Source of the DNA: Herbaspirillum rhizosphaerae
Lineage (GTDB): Bacteria; Pseudomonadota; Gammaproteobacteria; Burkholderiales; Burkholderiaceae_D
Length of the DNA: 64,000 bases
NCBI RefSeq assembly: GCF_001189965.1
Contig: NZ_LFLU01000006.1
Location: 1-64,000 of the forward strand
Direction: 5' to 3'
Part shown: positions 2,835 through 58,723 of the stretch, one piece after another
How positions within the stretch are numbered: position 1 is the first letter of the stretch
Layout: each line of letters starts with the position of its first letter
The notes under the pieces: model-generated
The model's database searches: none
The model's input: the letters and a program-made list of their open reading frames with translations, nothing else
Told to the model about the DNA's origin: nothing
Position numbers and translations under genes: made by a program

Positions 2835-4274
2835 ATGCCTATTAACTTTGCTACGTCCCCGCGATTACAAGCCTTTACCGATTTGCTCAAACGCTACAGT
2901 GCTGCGTTGAGCAATGCTTGGCGACACCGCTCCGATATGCAACCTGTCGAGCGGCTTGCTCACGAGGCGCAGTTTTTGCCAGCGGCATTATCTCTGCAAG
3001 AAACACCGGTATCGGCCGCGCCGCATGCCGCAATATGGATGCTGATTGGCTTCGCTTTCCTGGCTTTGCTCTGGGCAAGTTTCGGCTATATCGATGTTGT
3101 TGCCACAGCGCAGGGTAAGGTGGTGCCGAACGACCGCACCAAGACTATCCAGCCCTTTGAGATCTCCACTATCAAGGCGATCCATGTCACGGATGGGCAG
3201 CAGGTCAAAGTCGGCGATGCTCTGATCGAACTGGATGCTACCATCGCACAAGCCGACCTAGATCGGATACAGAGCGATTTGGGCGTAGCCCGGCTGCAAG
3301 TCGAACGCGAGCAAGCCATGCTGACCGCGCTAGACAACGGCCATACCCTGAAGCTCGAACGCCCTGCCGAAGTTGATGATGCCAAGTTCAACGAAGCGCA
3401 ACGCTTGCTAGCGAGTCAGCTGGCCGAGTTCAACGCAAAGCAAAGTCGGATCGAGGCTGAAACCACAAAACGCGAGGCCGAGTTGCGCTCGACCCAAGAA
3501 TTGGTACGCAAGCTGGAGCAGACCGTGCCGATTGCCAAGCAACGGGCACAAGACTTCAAAAATCTGCTCGATCAGAATTTTGTGTCTAAACATGGATATC
3601 TGGAGCGCGAACAAACTCGAATTGAGCAAGAAGCCGATCTGGCCAATCTGCGCAGCCGACTCAAGGAGATAGAAGCAGCTCTGCGCGAGGCCCGTGGTCA
3701 GCGCGCTGAACTGATGGCCGAAACCCGACGTGTCAGCCTGGATAGCATCACCGATGGACAACAAAAGGTTACGGCACTAGAACAGGACTTACTCAAGGCT
3801 GATTCACGCAGCAAGCTAATGAAGCTAACGTCACCAGTGAATGGCACTGTACAACAGTTGGTAGTTCATACGGTCGGAGGAGTGGTGACGCCCGCCCAGC
3901 CAGTAATGGTGATCGTACCACGCGACACCCCCTTAGAGATCGAAGCCTTCCTGGAGAACAAAGACATCGGTTTCGTTAAACCAAACCAGGATGCCGAAAT
4001 CAAGATCGAAACCTTCCAATATACCAAGTACGGTACCATCCATGCCAAGGTGATGTCGATATCTCATGACGCGATCAACGATGAAAAGCGAGGTCTGATT
4101 TACTCGACCCGAGTCAAAATGGACAAAGCTAGCATCAACGTAAACGGCACCTCAGTATCCTTGAGTCCCGGTATGGCCGTATCGGTAGAAATCAAAACAA
4201 GCAAGAGGCGAGTGATCGAATATTTCCTATCGCCGCTGTTGCAGCATACAAGCGAGAGTTTGCGGGAGCGTTGA
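2835..4274 (+). CDS. Type I secretion periplasmic adaptor (membrane fusion protein), HlyD family
   Basis: A 479-residue adaptor linking the ABC exporter to an outer-membrane channel. There is a cytoplasmic N-terminus, one membrane helix at about residues 67-86 (IWMLIGFAFLALLW), a split lipoyl/barrel-sandwich domain, and a long coiled-coil hairpin at ~130-320 rich in Glu, Gln, Arg and Leu heptads. A C-terminal beta-barrel includes the family motif PVNGTVQQL and the VMSISHDA...RGLIY segment typical of HlyD. It begins 5 bp after the HlyB-like stop. No TolC-type gene follows, so the outer-membrane channel must be encoded elsewhere. No clear terminator was found in the 156 bp before the convergent formaldehyde genes. 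Confidence 0.92.
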   Translation: MPINFATSPRLQAFTDLLKRYSAALSNAWRHRSDMQPVERLAHEAQFLPAALSLQETPVSAAPHAAIWMLIGFAFLALLWASFGYIDVVATAQGKVVPNDRTKTIQPFEISTIKAIHVTDGQQVKVGDALIELDATIAQADLDRIQSDLGVARLQVEREQAMLTALDNGHTLKLERPAEVDDAKFNEAQRLLASQLAEFNAKQSRIEAETTKREAELRSTQELVRKLEQTVPIAKQRAQDFKNLLDQNFVSKHGYLEREQTRIEQEADLANLRSRLKEIEAALREARGQRAELMAETRRVSLDSITDGQQKVTALEQDLLKADSRSKLMKLTSPVNGTVQQLVVHTVGGVVTPAQPVMVIVPRDTPLEIEAFLENKDIGFVKPNQDAEIKIETFQYTKYGTIHAKVMSISHDAINDEKRGLIYSTRVKMDKASINVNGTSVSLSPGMAVSVEIKTSKRRVIEYFLSPLLQHTSESLRER

Positions 4275-4430
4275 ACCGTGAGAGGCGCGCAGGCATTCGC
4301 AACTGCCCGTTTGATTCTGTGTTTCATCACTAACGCACTATTCAACGATCTTCCGGCACTATCAAAAACTCGCCCAAAACTTGGGGGTTAGCACGAGCTT
4401 TCGACTCTATGCGAATTAGGTAGTCTGTTG

Positions 4431-13833: not shown

Positions 13834-14883
13834 ATGCAATACCGCCCTCTTGGCCGCACCAACATCAATGTCAGCCTGATCACGCTCGGCACCATGACCT
13901 GGGGCGAACAAAACTCCGAGGCCGAAGCGCACTCCCAGCTTGACTACGCCACCGAGCGCGGCATCAACCTGATCGATGTCGCCGAAATGTATCCGGTGCC
14001 GCCCAAAGCGGAAACCCAGGGCCTGAGCGAACGCTATCTCGGCACCTGGCTCAAGAAATCCGGCAAGCGCGACCAACTGCTGATCGCCACCAAGGCCACC
14101 GGCCCGGCGCGCAAGCCGCACAATCCGCGCCACATCCGCGGCGGCATCAACAACTTCGACCGCAAGGGTCTGACGGAAGCGCTCAACGGCAGCCTCGAAC
14201 GCCTGCAACTCGATCACGTCGATCTGTATCAATTGCACTGGCCGGATCGCAGCGTCAACAGCTTCGGCCAGCTCAACTATGCACACATCGCCGACGAGGA
14301 TACGGTCGCCATTGATGAAACGCTGCGCATCCTGTCCGAGTTCGTCAAAGCCGGCAAAATCCGCCACATCGGCCTGTCCAACGAAACCTCGTGGGGTGTT
14401 GCGCAATTCCTGCGTGCTGCAGAAAAATTTGATCTGGAACGCATCGTCACGATCCAGAATCCCTACAACCTGCTCAATCGCGGGTTCGAAATCAACCTCG
14501 CCGAATTCGCTCATCGCGAACAAGTCGGTCTGCTGGCATACTCGCCGCTGGCCTTCGGCATGCTGTCCGGCAAATACGAAAACGGCGCGCGTCCTGCCGC
14601 CGGCCGCCTGACCCTGTTTGAACGTTTCACGCGCTACACCAACCCGCAAGCCGAAGCCGCGACCAAGGCCTACGTCGCCCTCGCCCGCAAGCACGGCATC
14701 GATCCGGCGCAAATGGCGCTGGCCTATGTCAACAGCCGACCGTTCGTCACCTCCAACATCATCGGCGCCACCACCATGGAGCAGTTGCGCAGCAACATCG
14801 ACAGCCTGTCGGTCCAACTGCCGGCGGAGATCATCGAGCAGATCGATGCGATCCACAAGACGCAGCCCAATCCCGCCCCCTGA
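13834..14883 (+). CDS. NADP(H)-dependent aldo/keto reductase, Tas-like
   Basis: A 349-residue (alpha/beta)8 oxidoreductase. The catalytic tetrad is visible: Asp and Tyr in DVAEMYPV, Lys in LLIATKATG and His in LYQLHWPDR. The insertion around PPKAETQGLSERYLGTWL and the overall length fit E. coli Tas and its relatives, which reduce carbonyls with NADPH; the natural substrate is not settled for the family. The start has a good AAGGA site. The gene is followed by a strong bidirectional terminator and stands alone. Confidence 0.92.
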   Translation: MQYRPLGRTNINVSLITLGTMTWGEQNSEAEAHSQLDYATERGINLIDVAEMYPVPPKAETQGLSERYLGTWLKKSGKRDQLLIATKATGPARKPHNPRHIRGGINNFDRKGLTEALNGSLERLQLDHVDLYQLHWPDRSVNSFGQLNYAHIADEDTVAIDETLRILSEFVKAGKIRHIGLSNETSWGVAQFLRAAEKFDLERIVTIQNPYNLLNRGFEINLAEFAHREQVGLLAYSPLAFGMLSGKYENGARPAAGRLTLFERFTRYTNPQAEAATKAYVALARKHGIDPAQMALAYVNSRPFVTSNIIGATTMEQLRSNIDSLSVQLPAEIIEQIDAIHKTQPNPAP

Positions 14884-50523: not shown

Positions 50524-51711
50524 ATGAGCCTCCATTCGATCCCGCTCTCTCCCGCCCAGGCGCGGGCCATCTGGCTGCGCGCGCAACGTCTTGACGAACT
50601 CGCGCCTTTCGGCGACGGCGCCGAGGCCGTCAGGCTGGCGACCGAACATCTCGGCTATGTGCAAATCGACACCATCAACGTCATCGAACGCAGCCATCAC
50701 CACATTCTCTACACGCGCATCCCCGGCTACAAACTGAGCGACCTGGAACAGGCGCAGTCGGTCGACAAGTCGGTATTTGAATACTGGACTCACGCGCTGG
50801 CCTATGTGCCGACGACGGCGTTTCGTCATTTCATCCCGGCGATGGAACAGCGGCGACTCAATCCGCACAGCTCGTTTGATGGCGTCGATGAAGCCGACTA
50901 CGCCGCCCTGCTCAAGCGCATCCGCAAGGAAGGCGGCTTGTCGATCCGCGATATCGAGGACGACGTACTGGTGGAAAAGACCCATCCCTGGGGCAGCCGC
51001 AAGCCCTCGAAGAAAGCCTTGCGCTGGGGCTTCTTCGTCGGCGATCTTGTGATCAGCAAACGCACCGGGATGATCAAGACTTATGAGCTGGCAGGACGCC
51101 ATTTCGGCTGGCAGCGGCGGCCGTCGGCGTCAAAGGAAAAGCAATTCGCGCAATACCTGCTGCAACGCGCGCTGCAGTCGCAGGGCGTCGTCAGCCTGGA
51201 TTCGATCTGCTACGGCAATGCGCCGATGAAGGCAATGGTCAGGGAATTGATAGAGGCCGGCGTCAGACGCAAACAACTGCTGCCTGTGCATCTCGACGGC
51301 GCGCCGAAAAGCCAGCACTGGATCACGCCGGAACAACTGGAGACGGTCATTGCAAGCACCGAGCCGGTTTCAGGAGAGCGCGTCCACATCCTGTCGCCCT
51401 TCGACCCGCTGGTGATCCAGCGCAAGCGGCTAGAGTTGTTCTTCGATTACGAACATCGCTTCGAAGCCTATGTGCCGGCAGAGAAACGCGTGCTCGGCTA
51501 CTTCGCGCTGCCGGTGCTGGTGGGCGACCGCATCGTCGCAGCGCTCGACCTCAAGATGGATCGCCAGGCCGGCAAGTTGCGCATGCAAAAGTGGAGCTGG
51601 ATTGCGAAGAAATCAGCGCCGCTGAAAAATCTCATCGAGGAAGAACTGCACCGCTTCGAACAATTCCAGAAACAATCGATGCGCTCAGCTCTTCCTCAGG
51701 ACCAAGACTAA
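50524..51711 (+). CDS. YcaQ/AlkZ-type winged-helix DNA glycosylase (HTH_42 family)
   Basis: 395 residues, near the ~410 of E. coli YcaQ. Three winged-helix modules and a beta-barrel are expected. The key catalytic segment is present as [20 protein letters not shown]: the Q-x-D form (QID) seen in YcaQ, versus QxQ in AlkZ. Further family motifs are [27 protein letters not shown] and [28 protein letters not shown]. YcaQ unhooks interstrand crosslinks and alkylated bases. The ATG at 50524 is chosen; upstream in-frame codons are not family-like. Its 3' end overlaps the convergent chemoreceptor gene by 4 bp. Confidence 0.88.
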
Positions 51712-53372
51712 ACACTGGCGTAACCGAGCATGTTGCGCGGCGTGACGTCGGTTGCCGGACGCATGGTGCTGCGGTCTTCCGCCGCGGCCAGTTCCGCTTC
51801 TGCCGTTGTCTCCGTTTCCGACGCGGCGATGTTGAACACCGACACCGATTGCACCAGGCTGTCGGCCTGACGTGTGAGCGCATTGGCGGCCTCGGCGGTC
51901 TGATCGACCAGCGCGGCGTTTTCCTGGGTGGACTTGTCCATTTCCACCACTACGCGGCTGACCTGCTCCAGGCCCTCCGCCTGTTCTTGCGTGGCAATCG
52001 AGATTTCATTCATGGTGTTCATGACGGTGTTGACCGAGGTCACGATCTGCTCCATGGCGCGGCCGGTTTCGATCACCTGGGCCGATGCCAGATCGATGCA
52101 GGCGGCGGATTCGCCGATCAATACCTTGACCTCCTTGGCCGCCTCGGCGCTGCGCAGGGCCAGCGAACGCACTTCCGTCGCCACCACTGCAAAGCCCCTG
52201 CCCTGCGTGCCGGCGCGCGCCGCTTCGACCGCGGCGTTCAAGGCCAGGATATTGGTCTGGAATGCAATGCCGTCGATCACGCTGACGATTTCGGAAATCT
52301 TGTTGGCGCTGACCGAGACTTCGCCCATGGTGCCGACGATCCTGGTCATCAGCTCGCCGCCTTTGACGGCGTCGCCTGCCGCGGTTGCAGCCAGCTGGTT
52401 GGTATGGCGCGTGTTCTCGGCATTTTGCTTGACGGCCGCCGACAGTTGTTCCAGCGTGGCGGCGGTTTCTTCCAATGACGATGCTTGCTGCTCGGTGCGC
52501 GCCGCCAGATCGATGTTGCCCTCGGCGATGTCGCGCGCGCTGCGGTTGACGTCTTCGGTGCCGTTGCGAATCGATGAGACGGTTTCCACCAAGCCTTGCT
52601 GCATGCGCTGCAAAGCGCCGAGCAAGACGCCGATCTCGTTGCGGGATGCGCCTTCTACCGGCGAGCTGAGATCGCCGCCGGCGATGCGGTCGAAATGCAT
52701 GCCGGTCGTGGCCAGCGGGCGCAGCAGCACGCGGTCGAACAGCATCCAGTACAGGCCGACCAGCAGCAGGGAAAACACGAACAGGCCGCCCGCCAGATAG
52801 ACGGCGATCATATAGCGCTGTTCGGATGCTGCGCTCAGGGTATCGCGCACCGATTCGGCGTGACGGATGACGGTGCGCAAGGTCGACGCGAACACGCGAT
52901 CGGCTTCTTCCGCGCTGGTGGTTGCTGCAGCATAGGCATCCAGCGAAACATCGTAGAGCGCCACTTCACGCCCCTCCAGCACCTTGGTGTAGGCGTCGTA
53001 GGCCTGGCCGACCTGCTGCGAGCGCTCCGCCAGGCCGGATGCCGACTGGTCGCCCTTGCGGTAGTTTTCAAACGTCTTCTTCGCTTCCTGTAACGCCGTC
53101 GATGCCTTGCGCGTGTAGTCGTTGGCCTTGACCTGATCGCCGCGCACCAGGTTGATGTAGGCGTTGTCCATGTTGATCAGCGTGGACTGAAACAGGCGCT
53201 CGACTTCATGCAGCGGCTGGATCTGCTTGTCCGACAGCGCTATCAGTTCGTTCATGGCCCTGGCCGACTGGCGCGCATCGGTCCAGGCAATGAATACCGC
53301 CGTCCACAATGCAAGCGAAAAGATGCCGAGGACGAACAAGAGGCTGGTGCGGATTTTCAGTTTGGCGAACAT
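51708..53372 (-). CDS. Methyl-accepting chemotaxis protein (Tar-like ligand domain)
   Basis: A 554-residue chemoreceptor: membrane helix ~11-31, a periplasmic four-helix domain (~35-190) with [20 protein letters not shown], second helix ~190-212, HAMP and signalling coiled coil. The tip is [37 protein letters not shown]. No NWETF pentapeptide is present at the C-terminus. It overlaps yciQ-like gene ycaQ tail to tail by 4 bp and starts 35 bp after the stop of the buf-operon DoxX gene on the same strand, so some read-through is possible. Confidence 0.93.
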
Positions 53373-53406: not shown

Positions 53407-53901
53407 TTATTTGATGCCGAACAGACGATCCAGCGACCAGGCGCCGGCGCCGCGACCGACCAGGAACAGCAGCAGACCGGCCCAGGTCAGGTGCGTCGGC
53501 CAGGCGTCCGGATAGACGAAGATTTCGATGACCGCCGTCATGCCCAGCAGGCCCAGTGCTGCGGAGCGGGTGAACAAGCCCAACACCAGCAGCAGCGGGA
53601 AAAAATGTTCTGCATAGGCGGCCAGATGCGCAGCGATTTCCGGCGGCACCAGCGGCAGTTTGTATTCCTGTTCGAACAGCGTGTAGGTGCTGTCCTTGAT
53701 GCTCAAGAAACCGGTGACCTTGGTGCGGCCGGAGAGAAAGAACACGGCCGCGACGGCCACCCGCGCCACCAGCGCCAGCAAGGAATCGCCGACCAGTTGC
53801 GTGGCGCGCGCGGCGGCGAAGTTGTACCAGCCGGCGATGGAGTTCGGCTTCGCTGCGGGGCTTGTTGTAGCTGGTGTCGCAGATGTGGGATGGGCAGACA
53901 T
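53407..53901 (-). CDS. DoxX family membrane protein of the bufferin operon
   Basis: 164 residues. The start at 53901 ([11 protein letters not shown]) has GGAG 7 bp upstream. A polar Pro/Ala-rich N-terminus of ~30 residues is followed by four helices: [54 protein letters not shown] and [16 protein letters not shown]. DoxX proteins often end bufferin-type operons; a redox or membrane role in maturation or delivery of the product has been suggested but is not established. It follows bufC by 31 bp and is the last gene of the operon. Confidence 0.88.
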
Positions 53902-53932
53902 GATGGTCTCCGTGAATAAAGATGAATGGATA

Positions 53933-54700
53933 TCAGCGCGTGGGCGTGAAAGGCGAAGCAAATGCTTCGGCGTGGATCAGCGTGCCGAGCAGGCGTGCAA
54001 CATCGAGTGCAGGTTCTGCGTCGACTGCCTTTGCCGTGGCAGTCTGCAAATTCTCGCCGGCGGCGCAGGCGTCGAGAAATGCACACATGCCGGGACCTGC
54101 CGCCTGCCAGACGACCTGGCCGTCGATGCGGCTCAGCAAGGCGCCCTCGCCGTCCCAGCTGAGTTCGTCGGCAAGCTCGCGTTGCTCGCGATTGGCTTGC
54201 CAGATGGAATAAGCAGGCTGGTCTGCGCACCAGCGCCAACGTATGCTGGCGCGCGGCCGCAATGCGCTCTGCAGCAGATCCACTTCGCCCAACGCCGCCA
54301 GCATCGCTGCTTCCAGCGGCGCCTCGTCGGCAGCGATATGGCATTCGGTCCACAAGCGATCCAGGCGCGCAACCTCGCCCAGGTAGGGCAACTCGGCAGC
54401 CGGACCGAACGCCGACAGAAAATCGGTGAAACCGCGGCCGTATTCAATCAGGCACACGCTTTCGGGCGGCTCGGCGCAGGCATGGATCAGCGCCGCGGAG
54501 CGAAACCATTCTTCGCCGACCAGACGCACGATGGTCGGGTAATTGGCCGCCAGCGCATCGACGCTGGCCTTGAGCACGGTGTTGCGATATACCTTGAAAC
54601 CCGGCTGGCCGGTCAGCTGCGCCAGCGGCGATGCGCTGTCGCCGACGCCGTAAATGGCGCGGATGAATTCGTGTTGAAAACTGTCGGAGGCGTGATTCAT
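53933..54700 (-). CDS. bufC: DUF2063/HvfC-type partner protein of the MNIO enzyme
   Basis: 255 residues. The N-terminal domain ([59 protein letters not shown]) is the DUF2063/HvfC-BufC domain. The family acts with a DUF692 enzyme, presenting or recognising the precursor peptide. Its ATG overlaps the bufB stop (ATGA), the usual arrangement for this obligate pair. The C-terminal ~100 residues are more variable, with a [18 protein letters not shown] segment. Confidence 0.9.
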
Positions 54701-55539
54701 TTCAGCACTCCTTGTGCGGACAAAATTTCTTGTGCCTTGTCGCGTTCGCTCAGCAATTCAGCGAAGGCGGGAATCTTGTCGTCGCGCTCGATCAGTGTCG
54801 GGCGTTCGCCGATGCGTTCGATCAGATGACGGTACAAGCGCCAGACCGGCTCGATCACCGGGGCGTCGTGCGAGTCGATCAGCAGCGGCGTGTCGGCACT
54901 CTCGTCGCCGTCTTCGCTATGTCCGGCCAGATGGATTTCCATGATCGCCCCGGCCGGCAGATTGTCGAGATAGGTGCGTGCGTCGTAACCGATGTTGTGC
55001 GCGCTGACATAGACGTTGTTGACGTCGACCAGCAATCCGCAACCGGTGCGGCGCACCAGCTCGTCGAGGAAGTCGGTTTCGCTCCAGTCGTGGTTGTCCA
55101 TGCGCAGGTAGTGCGATGGATTTTCAATGGCAATGCGGCGTTGCAGTTGCTCTTGCGTGCGCTGGATGTTGGCGGCGACGCGCACCAGGATGTCGCTGGT
55201 GCGCGGCACCGGCAACAAGTCGGGATAATAGCGGCCGTCCAACGTCGACCAGGCCAGATGTTCGGATATCAGCGCCGGCTCGACCCGGCGTATCAGTTCT
55301 TTCAGGCGCTGCAGGTGTTGCCGGTCGGGAGCAGCTTCTCCCGCCAGCGACAGCGACACCCCGTGCAGCGACACCGGATGGCGGCTGCGGACGGCGTCCA
55401 GCCATGCCAGCCGCGGACCGCCCGCCATCAGGTAATTCTCGGGATGGACTTCGAACCACATCCCGGCTTCGGCGCATTGCAACGCCTCATCGAAATGTTG
55501 CGGCTTCAATCCCAGTCCGGCGCCAAGTGTCGCTGTCAT
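54697..55539 (-). CDS. bufB: MNIO (DUF692) family multinuclear non-haem iron oxidative enzyme
   Basis: A 280-residue TIM-barrel enzyme. The iron-binding residues of the family can be read as GMWFEVHPENYL, VSLHGVSLSL, ISEHLAWS, IENPSHYL, LLVDVNNVYVSAHN, MEIHLAGHS and DSHDAPV. MNIO enzymes modify Cys residues of ribosomally made peptides, in bufferins to thiooxazole-type heterocycles. The substrate here should be the BufA-like protein encoded 25 bp upstream. The start has a GGAG site. It is coupled to bufC by a 4-bp overlap. Confidence 0.94.
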   Translation of the reverse strand: MTATLGAGLGLKPQHFDEALQCAEAGMWFEVHPENYLMAGGPRLAWLDAVRSRHPVSLHGVSLSLAGEAAPDRQHLQRLKELIRRVEPALISEHLAWSTLDGRYYPDLLPVPRTSDILVRVAANIQRTQEQLQRRIAIENPSHYLRMDNHDWSETDFLDELVRRTGCGLLVDVNNVYVSAHNIGYDARTYLDNLPAGAIMEIHLAGHSEDGDESADTPLLIDSHDAPVIEPVWRLYRHLIERIGERPTLIERDDKIPAFAELLSERDKAQEILSAQGVLK

Positions 55540-55564
55540 TTCAGGCTCCTGCTCCTGTGTGCAA

Positions 55565-55843
55565 TCAGATTGCAGTCAGGGAACCGGCGCCCTTCGGGGT
55601 CTTGATGCTGGTGCAGGTGCCGGCAGGAACGTTCTTCCAGGCGTTGCCCTGGTAATCCATCTTGGCGGTGCCGGCGCAAGTCGTGCCTTCGCCTGCCTTG
55701 CAATCGTTCTGGCCGGCCAGCGAGACGCCGTAGCATTTTTCAACGGCGGTCTTGGCTGCGGCTGGTGTGTTTTGCGCCATGGCGATACCGGATGTCAGAG
55801 CAGCCAGGGTGAAAGCGGCAGTTGCGAGTTTGATGGTGTTCAT
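55565..55843 (-). CDS. bufA: Bufferin-type (DUF2282) exported Cys-rich RiPP precursor
   Basis: 92 residues. A Sec signal ([13 protein letters not shown]...IAMA, cleavage after Ala23) precedes a ~69-residue mature part with four Cys at 37, 48, 56 and 77, in the family pattern [31 protein letters not shown] and PAGTC. DUF2282 proteins are precursors of bufferins, copper-binding metallophores whose Cys residues are modified by MNIO enzymes before or during export. It is the first gene of the operon bufA-bufB-bufC-doxX and is preceded by a sigma-type promoter element at 55928-55953. Confidence 0.93.
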
Positions 55844-55927
55844 GAGGTACTCCTTGAAGATGAATGGATTGTTGAGAGAAGCAGATATCCGCCGGAAGCG
55901 TTCTTTTGCAGATGATCTGAACGTTAG

Positions 55928-55953
55928 TTCGTCGCACCATGGCGTTCGGTTAC
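55928..55953 (-). promoter_or_regulatory. ECF sigma (SigF-type) promoter of the bufferin operon
   Basis: On the minus strand: GTAACC (55953-55948), 16 bp, CGAA (55931-55928). The CGAA is ~85 bp before the bufA ATG. The same hexamer, spacing and tetramer occur in the opposite direction at 55998-56023, with the flanks CTGTAACCG shared. As I recall, the Caulobacter SigF promoter is of this form. Confidence 0.78.
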
Positions 55954-55997
55954 AGCAAATTGAAAATAAATTTGAAAATATTTATTTTGCAAACGCT

Positions 55998-56023
55998 GTA
56001 ACCGGATCCGTCATGCCAACGAA
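55998..56023 (+). promoter_or_regulatory. ECF sigma (SigF-type) promoter of the orphan nrsF-like gene
   Basis: GTAACC (55998-56003), 16 bp, CGAA (56020-56023), ~70 bp before the ATG at 56093. It matches the divergent element upstream of bufA in both boxes and in the exact spacer length. Confidence 0.78.
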
Positions 56024-56092
56024 CATATAGACAAGGCGTCTTGCCGGACCGGTGGCGGTCCAGGGGCAGAAGACGCGAGGATGGAGAATTTG

Positions 56093-56737
56093 ATGAAAAC
56101 ACCTGACCTGGTGTCCATGCTTGCTACAGGAACAACACGCAGCGATCCCGATATATTGGGCAAGCGACTTGGACTGGCCTTGCTGATCGGCCTGATCGGC
56201 GCGTCTGCGCTGCTGGTGGCGGCTTACGGAATACGCGGCGACATGCCGGAACTGCTGGCGACGCCCTTGTTCTGGATCAAGGTATCGTTTCCGCTGGCGA
56301 TCCTGATGTCGGCGCAGGGCATCACCGCACGGCTGGCGCGTCCGGGGGCTTTGCTCGGACTGCAGCGGCTGATCCTGCTGGGCTTGCCGGTGCTGGCGAT
56401 CTGGCTGGCGAGTATCGGCTTTCTGCTGCTGGCGCCGCCGTCGCTGCGGCTGGCCTTGGTGCTGGGTTCGACCTGGCAGGTCTGCTCATTGAATATTGCA
56501 CTGCTGTCGCTGCCGACTTTCTTTTCGATGTTCTGGGCCATGCGCGGCCTGGCGCCGACGCGGCTGATGCTGACCGGCGCCAGCATCGGGCTGGTGGCCG
56601 GCGCACAGGGCGTGGTGGTCTACACCTTATATTGCACGGAAATGACGATGCCCTTCTGGGGCGTCTGGTATGTGATCGGCATGCTGGCGCCGACGGCGGT
56701 GGGCGCCCTGCTCGGTCCGCGCTTGCTGCGCTGGTAG
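56093..56737 (+). CDS. Orphan NrsF-family (DUF1109) anti-sigma factor, second copy
   Basis: 214 residues with six hydrophobic helices. The N-terminus MKTPDLVSMLATG is nearly the same as that of the sigma-linked copy at 58082 ([13 protein letters not shown]). The sensor Cys positions are kept: TWQVCSLNIALLSLPT and YTLYCTEMTMPFWG, though the second site has one Cys where the other copy has two (YCLHCPEM). The ATG at 56093 has GGAG 6 bp upstream; one at 56081 is less well placed. NrsF proteins hold an ECF sigma factor at the membrane until metal or thiol stress. No sigma gene adjoins this copy, but a SigF-type promoter does, suggesting negative feedback. Confidence 0.86.
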   Translation: MKTPDLVSMLATGTTRSDPDILGKRLGLALLIGLIGASALLVAAYGIRGDMPELLATPLFWIKVSFPLAILMSAQGITARLARPGALLGLQRLILLGLPVLAIWLASIGFLLLAPPSLRLALVLGSTWQVCSLNIALLSLPTFFSMFWAMRGLAPTRLMLTGASIGLVAGAQGVVVYTLYCTEMTMPFWGVWYVIGMLAPTAVGALLGPRLLRW

Positions 56738-56754
56738 AGGGTGTAGTGATCTGT

Positions 56755-57339
56755 TCAGGGATCGAGCAAGGCCGCAACCGGCCGCACCAGTCCTTCGAGC
56801 AAGGCGCGCTCGGGACGGGTGCGCGCCAGCACGCGGATACCGAGCAAGGTGCTCAGCAAGACGCGCCCCATGTCGTCCGCCGATTGACCGGAAGAAATGC
56901 TGCCGTCGCGCTGGCCGGCGGCGACGCAGCGGCGGAAGAAGGATTCCACCTGCACCAGCACGTCGGCAACCACTCGCTGGAATTCGGGATCGTGCGGCGC
57001 GACTTCCAGCGCCGAGTTGACCAGCATGCAACCCTTGCGGTCCTTGTCCGCCAGCGAGCGTTTGATGATTTCGTTGAAGAAGGCGGCGATGGCGGCGCGC
57101 GGCGGCATGTGGTTTTCGAAACGGCCGACGCGGTCAAGGAAACTCTGCTCGACGTAACGGTCCAGCGCACGCCGGTACAGGGCGCGCTTGTCGCCGAAGG
57201 CGTTGTAGAGGCTGGCGCCGGTGATGCCCATGCTGTCGGCCAGGTCGCGCACCGACGTGGCTTCGTAGCCGCGGGCCCAGAAACATTGGACGGCGGCGTC
57301 AAGCGCTGCCGCTTCGTCGAATTCGCGTGGTCGTGCCAT
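56755..57339 (-). CDS. TetR/AcrR-family transcriptional regulator
   Basis: 194 residues. The helix-turn-helix is ALDAAVQCFWARGYEATSVRDLADSMGITGASLYNAFGDKRALYRRAL. The C-terminal domain has KGCMLVNSALEVAPHDPEF, with a Cys found in a subgroup that often senses electrophiles. It is inserted between the two anti-sigma genes, convergent with the first and divergent from the sigma gene. Its target is not evident; autoregulation is likely (see 57390-57420). Confidence 0.9.
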   Translation of the reverse strand: MARPREFDEAAALDAAVQCFWARGYEATSVRDLADSMGITGASLYNAFGDKRALYRRALDRYVEQSFLDRVGRFENHMPPRAAIAAFFNEIIKRSLADKDRKGCMLVNSALEVAPHDPEFQRVVADVLVQVESFFRRCVAAGQRDGSISSGQSADDMGRVLLSTLLGIRVLARTRPERALLEGLVRPVAALLDP

Positions 57340-57389
57340 GAGACGTGTCGTATCGGCTTGATTGCCGTGATTGCTCTGTTATTGCGGCT

Positions 57390-57420
57390 AGTATATCATT
57401 TTAAAACAACCGATCTAAAA
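57390..57420 (-). promoter_or_regulatory. Promoter/operator region of the TetR gene
   Basis: On the minus strand, TTAGAT (57418-57413), 17 bp, TATACT (57395-57390) makes a reasonable sigma70 promoter ~50 bp from the ATG. The spacer contains the short inverted arms TTTTA and TAAAA around AACAACCGATC, a possible operator. The ECF sigma gene starts on the other side, so the same site could affect it. Confidence 0.45.
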
Positions 57421-57500
57421 CACGCCGCAGCACCATTGATGTCTGCGACCGATCATTGCTTTAGCCCAAAACCAAGCCATCGCCATTGCCTGGCCGCCTG

Positions 57501-58085
57501 ATGAAGCGACTGACAACAACAGCAGAAACCGATCCGGGGATGTCCGTCGAGGAGCGCTTGAAGGCGTTGCTTCTGGCCGGACTGGACGGCAATGAAACTG
57601 CCTATCACGCCTTCCTCAACGAACTCAGCGGCCGCCTGCGCGCCTATGTCAGGAAGCGCCTGTTCCATCTGCACGAGGAGGTCGAGGATATCGTGCAGGA
57701 AACCTTGCTGGCCGTCCACAACGCGCGCCACACCTACCGCGCGGAAGAACCGCTGACGGCGTGGGTGTATGCGATTGCGCGCTACAAGCTGATGGATTTC
57801 CTGCGCATGCGCTCGCGTCACGACGCCTTCAACGAGCCGCTGGACGACTATGTCGACATCTTCTCCAGCTCCGACGACGAGCCGGCCAACGACGCCAAGC
57901 GCGACATCAACGTCTTGCTGGAACAATTGCCGGACAAGCAACGCCTGCCCATCGTTCACGTTAAACTGCAAGGCATGTCGGTGGCGGAAACCGCGCAACT
58001 GACGGGCCTGTCCGAATCCGCCGTTAAAATAGGCATACACCGCGGCCTCAAATCCCTCGCGGCCAAAATACGATTGTTTTCATGA
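57501..58085 (+). CDS. ECF-type RNA polymerase sigma factor, SigF/NrsF group
   Basis: About 194 residues with regions sigma2 ([35 protein letters not shown] and [20 protein letters not shown]) and sigma4 ([44 protein letters not shown]). The stop overlaps the start of an NrsF-like anti-sigma gene by 4 bp, so it is the cognate pair. The start is uncertain: ATG 57501 is used, while TTG 57486 and ATG 57540 are alternatives, none with a strong ribosome site. I found no GTAACC-N16-CGAA element upstream of it, so it does not seem to drive itself. Likely targets are bufA and the orphan nrsF gene. Confidence 0.92.
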
Positions 58086-58723
58086 AGACCGACGATTTCA
58101 TTTCCATGCTGGCAACCGGTGTCAAACCGGTGGATCGTCACGTGCAGTTCAAGCGTTTCTCGCAAGCCATCCTGGTCGGCGGCGCCGGCGCCTTCATCCT
58201 GATGGTGTTGCGGTTCGGCATCCGCCCGGATATCGGCGTCATGCTGGTCACGCCGCTGTTCTGGTTCAAGATGGCTTTCCCGCTGTCGCTGGCTGCCGCT
58301 TCGCTGTGGCTGCTGACACGCCTGAGCCGCCCCGGCGCCGGCCTGGGAAAACGCTGGATCGCGCCGGCCGCGCCGGTGCTGGTGATCTGGATCGCGGCGC
58401 TGGCCGTGCTGGCGCTTGCGCCGGAAAGCGAACGCCTGAACCTGATCATGGGCTTCACCTGGCGCCGCTGCCCCTTCAATATCGCCATCCTCTCGATACC
58501 GACCTGCGTGACGATCACCTGGGCGGTGCGCCAACTGGCGCCGACGCGCCTGCGCCTGGCCGGCGCCATGGCGGGCTTGCTGGCCGGTTCGGTAGCGACC
58601 GTCGCCTATTGCCTGCACTGCCCGGAAATGGGCATGCCTTTCTGGGGTATCTGGTACCTGGGCGGCATGCTGATTCCCGCCGTGCTGGGATGGATCTTCG
58701 GGCCGGCGCTGTTGCGCTGGTAA
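58082..58723 (+). CDS. nrsF: NrsF-family (DUF1109) membrane anti-sigma factor
   Basis: 213 residues with six membrane helices. It starts in an ATGA overlap with the sigma gene, the standard layout. The N-terminal cytoplasmic [13 protein letters not shown] segment probably binds the sigma factor. Conserved Cys lie in [16 protein letters not shown] and [17 protein letters not shown]; in Caulobacter NrsF, Cys residues are needed for sensing metals. The protein ends [10 protein letters not shown], like the paralogue at 56093 (GPRLLRW). It converges on the AraC gene with 6 bp between. Confidence 0.92.

Follow-up and report, generated by a model that had tools for sequence, protein, structure and literature searches.

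The 64 kb stretch of Herbaspirillum rhizosphaerae DNA analyzed here (contig NZ_LFLU01000006.1, positions 1 to 64,000; hereafter, the window) carries a locus at which a bufferin operon stands back to back with genes for an extracytoplasmic function (ECF) sigma factor of the ECF16/SigF type and for two anti-sigma factors of the NrsF family. A pair of divergent predicted promoters separates the two groups of genes. The placing of these promoters and their conservation in relatives suggest that the sigma factor reads the Buf1-type operon in one direction and, in the other, the gene for NrsF1, which would act as an induced second anti-sigma factor. We assign this reading a probability of about 0.6. 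Comparisons were made across 34 genomes of the genus, a family sample of 294 genomes, and an order sample of 399 genomes that includes few of the genus.

The bufferin and sigma factor locus

The bufferin genes lie on the reverse strand. The first, bufA (55565..55843), encodes a Buf1-type DUF2282 precursor (PF10048, 85.7 bits, cut-off 22.4) and is followed by bufB (54697..55539), the gene for an MNIO bufferin maturase that matches PF05114 with 340.6 bits and the MNIO_BufB equivalog NF050167 with 371 bits (cut-off 310). Next come bufC (53933..54700), encoding the DUF2063 partner of the MNIO enzyme (PF09836, 66.8 bits, cut-off 27.2), and doxX (53407..53901; PF07681, 67 bits, cut-off 23.6), for which the ATG at 53901 is the most likely start, the open reading frame (ORF) extending to a TTG at 53961. 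BufB is the product of the sole MNIO match in the window's genome, and its nearest solved chain is 3bww. BufA possesses a signal peptide, as read by eye, and four cysteines at positions 37, 48, 56, and 77; all four are kept in 38 of 38 aligned BufA sequences, which were drawn from the genus, from the wider family, and from Cupriavidus metallidurans. A DUF2282 precursor with a signal peptide and four Cys, adjoining a BufB-type MNIO and a DUF2063 partner, is the composition of a Buf1 cluster, and the profile matches support the presence of a complete Buf1-type bufferin operon. Buf2 identity was discarded for BufA, which scored 25.8 bits with NF050166 against a cut-off of 60. An earlier note on this DNA, made from the sequence alone, had proposed the order bufA-bufB-bufC-DoxX, and Pfam and NCBIfam matches above curated cut-offs bear this out. 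The extent that it gave the operon stands for the core, 53407-55843, but its limits do not, as the operon probably runs on into a chemoreceptor gene at 51708-53372.

Across the promoter region, the forward strand carries nrsF1 (56081..56737, with an alternative ATG start at 56093), which encodes a second NrsF anti-sigma of a separate clade with the sensor motif TLYCTE (PF06532, 216.5 bits). It is followed by a tetR-type regulator gene on the reverse strand (56755..57339; PF00440, 53 bits), antisense between nrsF1 and sigF. The gene for the ECF16/SigF-type sigma factor, sigF (57501..58085, forward, alternative ATG start at 57540), scores 312.8 bits with NF009188 (PRK12536; cut-off 250) and is overlapped by nrsF2 (58082..58723, forward), whose product carries the sensor motif YCLHCPE (PF06532, 247.2 bits, cut-off 26.8). 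An ECF sigma gene that overlaps the gene of a PF06532 anti-sigma factor, itself marked by a conserved pair of Cys, is the arrangement expected of an ECF16/SigF-NrsF system, and the PRK12536 and PF06532 scores confirm the assignment to the SigF group with NrsF that had been made in the earlier note. Both NrsF copies of the window fall under the cut-off of the NCBIfam equivalog NF042994. The sigma factor had also been placed 1.4 kb from the operon; its ORF starts 1.66 kb from the bufA start codon.

A predicted pair of sigma-F-type promoters

A gap of 237 bp separates bufA from its neighbor and contains two exact copies of the motif GTAACC-N16-CGAA, placed back to back. One (55928..55953, reverse strand) is the predicted promoter of bufA, and the other (55998..56023, forward strand), which is conserved in relatives, precedes nrsF1; an A/T-rich spacer of 44 bp (55954..55997) separates their -35 elements. 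These are the sole two copies without mismatches in 64 kb. Since a scan with up to two mismatches yields 43 matches in the window against a shuffle mean of 37, which is not above chance, and since six further exact matches occur in the whole genome, the case rests on placing and conservation rather than on the bare motif. Those six were considered as further regulon members and set aside; five of them (L002, L007, L008, L013, and L027) lie within long ORFs. The sixth, at G000:C52:221175 (L144), overlaps only a 110-aa ORF with a TTG start in a listing of ORFs of at least 100 aa.

Conservation was measured in 32 loci of the genus, picked for carrying NrsF matches and totaling 330,647 bp. A spacing of 16 gave 58 motif matches in these loci, whereas none or one was obtained at any of the remaining spacings in the range 8-25. 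Upstream of bufA, GTAAC[CT]-N16-CGAA is present in 35 of the 38 aligned loci, with widely divergent spacer sequences. The distance from one -35 element to the other was determined for 28 pairs of the genus, the window excluded, and amounted to 42-44 bp in 21 of them, 33-34 bp in 3, 56 bp in 2, and 112-120 bp in 2; most of the printed spacers show an A/T tract between the paired promoters. The three shorter classes (33-34, 42-44, and 56 bp) stand approximately one DNA turn apart, for which helical phasing or shared UP elements are possible explanations.

The earlier note had proposed that two identical promoter elements tie the operon to one sigma factor. The pair itself holds, being exact, conserved, and consistent with a single sigma factor, a conclusion that the spacing and alignment counts support; the sigma factor would use both the bufA and the nrsF1 promoter. 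What changes is the target of the forward copy, which faces the gene of the second NrsF and not sigF.

A second anti-sigma factor, NrsF1

Both NrsF matches of the window's genome lie at this locus. Within the genus, NrsF is present in 27 of 34 genomes, 22 of which have at least two matches; the three matches of the near relative G013 correspond to two genes, one of them split between contigs. Relatives of NrsF1 at 93-97% identity are found in public Herbaspirillum records and in a Duganella metagenome-assembled genome. The commonest arrangement, seen at 14 of the 32 genus loci, consists of bufA, the two divergent promoters, nrsF1, sigF, and nrsF2 in that order, with the match ends of nrsF1 and sigF 59-108 bp apart. 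Where nrsF1 is missing, the promoter stands in front of sigF; examples are L085, L086, and L092 within the genus and L129, L130, and C. metallidurans beyond it. Other adjacent full-gene NrsF pairs were limited, in the family sample, to two genomes of a single other genus, G208 and G236, and the two neighboring NrsF matches of G212 span different halves of the profile.

Apart from the window, only L068, L074, and L080 among the 32 genus loci show the tetR gene between nrsF1 and sigF, and G013 lacks it at that position. The window and these three loci share a conserved stretch upstream of sigF (TATATCATTTTAAAACAA..GATCTAAAAC), which is overlapped by a sigma-70-like consensus match pointing to tetR. 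Between tetR and sigF, no sigma-F-type promoter was found at up to two mismatches. A simple autoregulated pair of sigma factor and NrsF, as the earlier note implied, therefore does not describe this locus, where the forward promoter precedes the second NrsF gene and an antisense tetR follows; sigF in the window is probably not simply co-transcribed from a sigma-F promoter.

A tree was built from 72 of the 75 NrsF ORFs, the three below 180 aa (fragments L095, L096, and L097) being omitted. It has two groups, 26 proteins of the type encoded upstream of sigF and 46 of the downstream type, separated with support of 98/95. Among the 26 upstream labels, three (L084, L088, and L091) were given by similarity, no sigF being adjacent; those of L066, L126, and some others were set by gene order, and the NrsF of L141 is labeled downstream though its stretch has no sigF match. 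Outside the genus, an upstream-type copy is the only NrsF match at the sigF loci L126, L128, and L131, which suggests that this type can act as sole anti-sigma factor; the genome of L126 (G222) also has a downstream-type NrsF beside another sigF.

Counterparts of the two conserved cysteines, C131/C181 in Caulobacter and C129/C179 in Brucella, occur in all 72 proteins. Matched by position, they are C130 and C180 in NrsF2 and C135 and C185 in NrsF1. In the downstream type, a His precedes the periplasmic Cys in 44 of 46 proteins, and HCPE is present in 43. The main NrsF1 clade carries [ST]xYC[VTI]E instead (23 of 23), and the other three upstream-type copies retain YC(L/F)HCPE. Ratios of nonsynonymous to synonymous substitution rates (dN/dS) of 0.03-0.13 between NrsF1 and four close relatives indicate purifying selection, and nrsF1 retains its sigma-F-type promoter in the tetR clade and at L084, L088, and L091, where no sigF stands next to it. 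These features are compatible with NrsF1 being a sigma-induced brake whose sensing may be altered.

An alternative is that nrsF1 is a redundant duplicate and that both NrsF proteins hold the sigma factor alike. The two cysteines common to all 72 proteins and the similar N-terminal MKT...ML region of both copies would agree with this, as would the absence of nrsF1 from L085, L086, and L092, the first two of which belong to genomes with one NrsF match. We consider this explanation unlikely, given the clean split of the paralogues, the sensor-motif change that is consistent across the NrsF1 clade, and the fact that nrsF1 has its own conserved sigma-F-type promoter and is kept apart from sigF in three loci.

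A chemoreceptor linked to the bufferin genes

A gene for a methyl-accepting chemotaxis protein (MCP; 51708..53372, reverse strand) begins 34 bp past the doxX stop, with no terminator-like site seen between the two, and is the probable last gene of the operon. Pfam recognizes a TarH four-helix sensor, a HAMP domain, and an MCP signal domain in its product, and dN/dS values to four close relatives are 0.03-0.10. Of the 34 genus genomes, 14 carry the sensor region (residues 1-212), each as a single copy and in every case at a bufA locus: 12 copies follow doxX, and 2 follow a bufA that has no adjoining bufBC-doxX. The family sample adds three strong matches (in G220, G153, and G186) and three weak ones at 21-26% identity. 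The copy in G220 follows doxX, whereas that in G153 follows bufC with no doxX match between. In G186, the MCP gene comes after sigF-nrsF2 and has GTAACT-N16-CGAA approximately 95 bp upstream, bufABC-doxX being about 20 kb away; with uniform base use, such a motif is expected by chance in about 3 of 10,000 stretches of 150 bp, or 9 of 10,000 for the three spacings scanned. No MCP match besides that of the window's genome was obtained in the order sample at E <= 1e-20, and no homologues were matched on plasmids. The window's genome has 14 CheW-domain matches, which means that a chemotaxis apparatus probably exists.

The receptor may instead be a passenger gene, placed downstream by synteny and sensing something unrelated, such as aromatic acids. 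This has some plausibility, though less than even odds: the best solved relative of the sensor is the aromatic acid chemoreceptor 6s18 (E = 0.0032), and at L070, L071, L072, and L078 a TPR-methyltransferase-like gene, judged by eye, takes the slot of the MCP gene after doxX. A passenger sits less easily with the location of all 14 genus copies at a bufA locus and of the three strong outside copies at buf or sigF-nrsF loci, a linkage kept in four different arrangements and once accompanied by its own sigma-F-type motif. According to a 2025 eLife paper, the sensing of metal ions by an MCP through direct binding has no supporting evidence (PMC11978298). The bufferin-linked MCP is a concrete candidate for this published open question on metal sensing.

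Comparison with known systems

The link between bufferins and SigF-NrsF is already known (PMC3511200, PMC10304878, PMC12452194). In Caulobacter crescentus, the ECF16/SigF group answers chromate and cadmium, and the sigma-F promoter GTAACC-N16-CGAA has been defined with support from rapid amplification of cDNA 5′ ends (PMC3511200). The present locus shares with SigF-NrsF (CC3253-CC3252) and CC3254-CC3257 of that species the sigma and anti-sigma families, the promoter, the two NrsF cysteines, and the gene order DUF2282-DUF692-DUF2063-DoxX (PMC3511200). It differs in that Caulobacter is described with one NrsF and a promoter before sigF itself (PMC3511200), whereas here a second NrsF takes that promoter, a tetR gene intervenes, and an MCP gene follows doxX.

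The gigPABT-rpoQ-rsqA genes of C. metallidurans form the same divergon, with an operon inducible by Cu and Au (PMC10304878). On the chromid NC_007974.2 of strain CH34 (L165), the region between gigP and rpoQ contains an exact GTAACC-N16-CGAA pair, at 4217-4242 (reverse strand) and 4277-4302 (forward strand). The 2023 study of that operon identified no gig promoter (PMC10304878), and the predicted pair supplies a candidate for it. Unlike the window, C. metallidurans has one anti-sigma factor, a directly divergent sigma gene, and, over the 10.6 kb taken, no match to the MCP.

The Buf1 clusters of an MNIO survey have the same core of Buf1 precursor, MNIO, DUF2063, and DoxX, and the survey places sigma and NrsF genes in Buf1 but not in Buf2 clusters (PMC12452194). 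The terms MCP, methyl-accepting, and chemotaxis are absent from its main text, in which anti-sigma appears once (PMC12452194). BcrS/AbcS of Brucella likewise pairs an ECF16 sigma factor with an NrsF-family anti-sigma factor that has C129/C179, the promoter there being (T/C)GTAAC-N17-CGAA; the system differs in controlling bcrXQP and hypochlorite resistance, and DUF692 does not occur in the text of the paper (PMC8315932).

Against this background, two features of the locus, its regulated NrsF paralogue and its bufferin-linked MCP, were not found in the literature searched: neither a second NrsF at one sigma locus nor an MCP in a bufferin operon came up there, supplements and most subscription papers being outside the scope of the search. 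Conservation of the promoter extends the Caulobacter-type link of SigF/NrsF and bufferin into Burkholderiales, and the second NrsF, with its defined residue change, makes for a natural circuit of two inhibitors, suitable for asking how this anti-sigma family senses stress.

Proposed mechanism and inducing signal

In the proposed mechanism, the periplasmic Cys of NrsF2 would be the target of an envelope stress that frees the sigma factor, which would then read both promoters. The leftward output would be BufA, secreted and modified at its Cys by BufB and BufC, together with DoxX and, by read-through, the MCP. The rightward output would be NrsF1, which, with its changed sensor site, would re-capture the sigma factor and limit the response. 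At the 14 genus loci with the commonest arrangement, rightward transcription could continue from nrsF1 into sigF-nrsF2 and give mixed positive and negative feedback; in the clade of the window, the intervening antisense tetR would leave mainly negative feedback. We infer the signal, the use of the motifs as promoters, the binding of the sigma factor by NrsF1, the read-through into the MCP gene, and the ligand of the receptor.

Several observations weigh against this scheme. No motif lies within approximately 260 bp of bufA at three of the 38 loci (L128, L163, and L164). The 23 NrsF1 proteins with the altered motif form one clade (support 100/97) and consequently represent a single change kept since, not 23 events, and selection on NrsF1 appears looser toward three distant relatives, with dN/dS of 0.42-0.46 (0.44 for L073). 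The genomes G023 and G026, to which L088 and L091 belong, are fragmented assemblies. As for the receptor, it is missing from 20 of the 34 genus genomes, including 11 of the 25 that have an MNIO match, and is therefore optional; G153 has bufABC-MCP without any NrsF match in its genome. A metal-binding Cys/His site in the MCP sensor was sought and not found, there being no conserved Cys and no invariant His (His55 is present in 16 of 17 sequences, and Met68 is invariant). Finally, deletion of rpoQ in C. metallidurans raised gig expression in metal-treated cells, which its authors ascribe to compensation, and rpoQ-rsqA is reported to depend on the housekeeping sigma factor RpoD (PMC10304878). Both results argue against taking the motif pair of that species at face value.

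The mechanism admits a bolder form, which we offer as speculation with the odds clearly against it. The sigma factor would build its own shut-off through an NrsF1 made insensitive to the inducer by the change from HCPE to YC(V/T/I)E, producing a timed pulse of bufferin, and the MCP of the operon, reading metal, bufferin loaded with metal, or the envelope stress itself, would couple buffering to swimming escape.

The earlier note inferred a regulon for buffering copper or another metal, but the signal itself could be a metal or an oxidant. One alternative to a metal response is a sigma system that detects oxidants (in the form of reactive chlorine, peroxide, or thiol oxidation), with bufferin as one redox-repair output and copper not the physiological inducer. 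We regard this as a tentative possibility that deserves attention without being the favored one. It draws on Brucella, where the ECF16 system is induced by hypochlorite and controls a methionine sulfoxide reductase (PMC8315932). L166 has an annotated DUF1223 gene close to its sigma-NrsF pair, and a similar one, recognized by eye, stands beside sigF in L162. At L124 (G208), moreover, a gene whose first residues resemble exported MsrB by eye starts 104 bp past the doxX stop. Pointing toward metals are the response of Caulobacter SigF to Cr and Cd (PMC3511200) and that of gig to Cu and Au (PMC10304878). Nor was any redox gene tied to the motif in the window's genome, where five of the six other exact matches lie inside long ORFs. 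A sigma-F motif for the MsrB-like gene of L124 was also considered and set aside: that stretch has a single GTAACT motif, located about 4 kb off at 14499.

Variant loci

Two departures from the common organization were observed among the relatives. Genome G017 (L083 and L084) has no MNIO or DUF2282 match, yet it has sigF-nrsF2 and, 79 kb off, an nrsF1 with a sigma-F-type promoter; its sigma-F regulon must accordingly be something else. At L088 (G023) and L091 (G026), a second bufA is accompanied by nrsF1 and an MCP gene without bufBC-doxX, and bufABC-doxX-sigF-nrsF2 lies on another contig. These two genomes possibly provide two precursors for one maturase.

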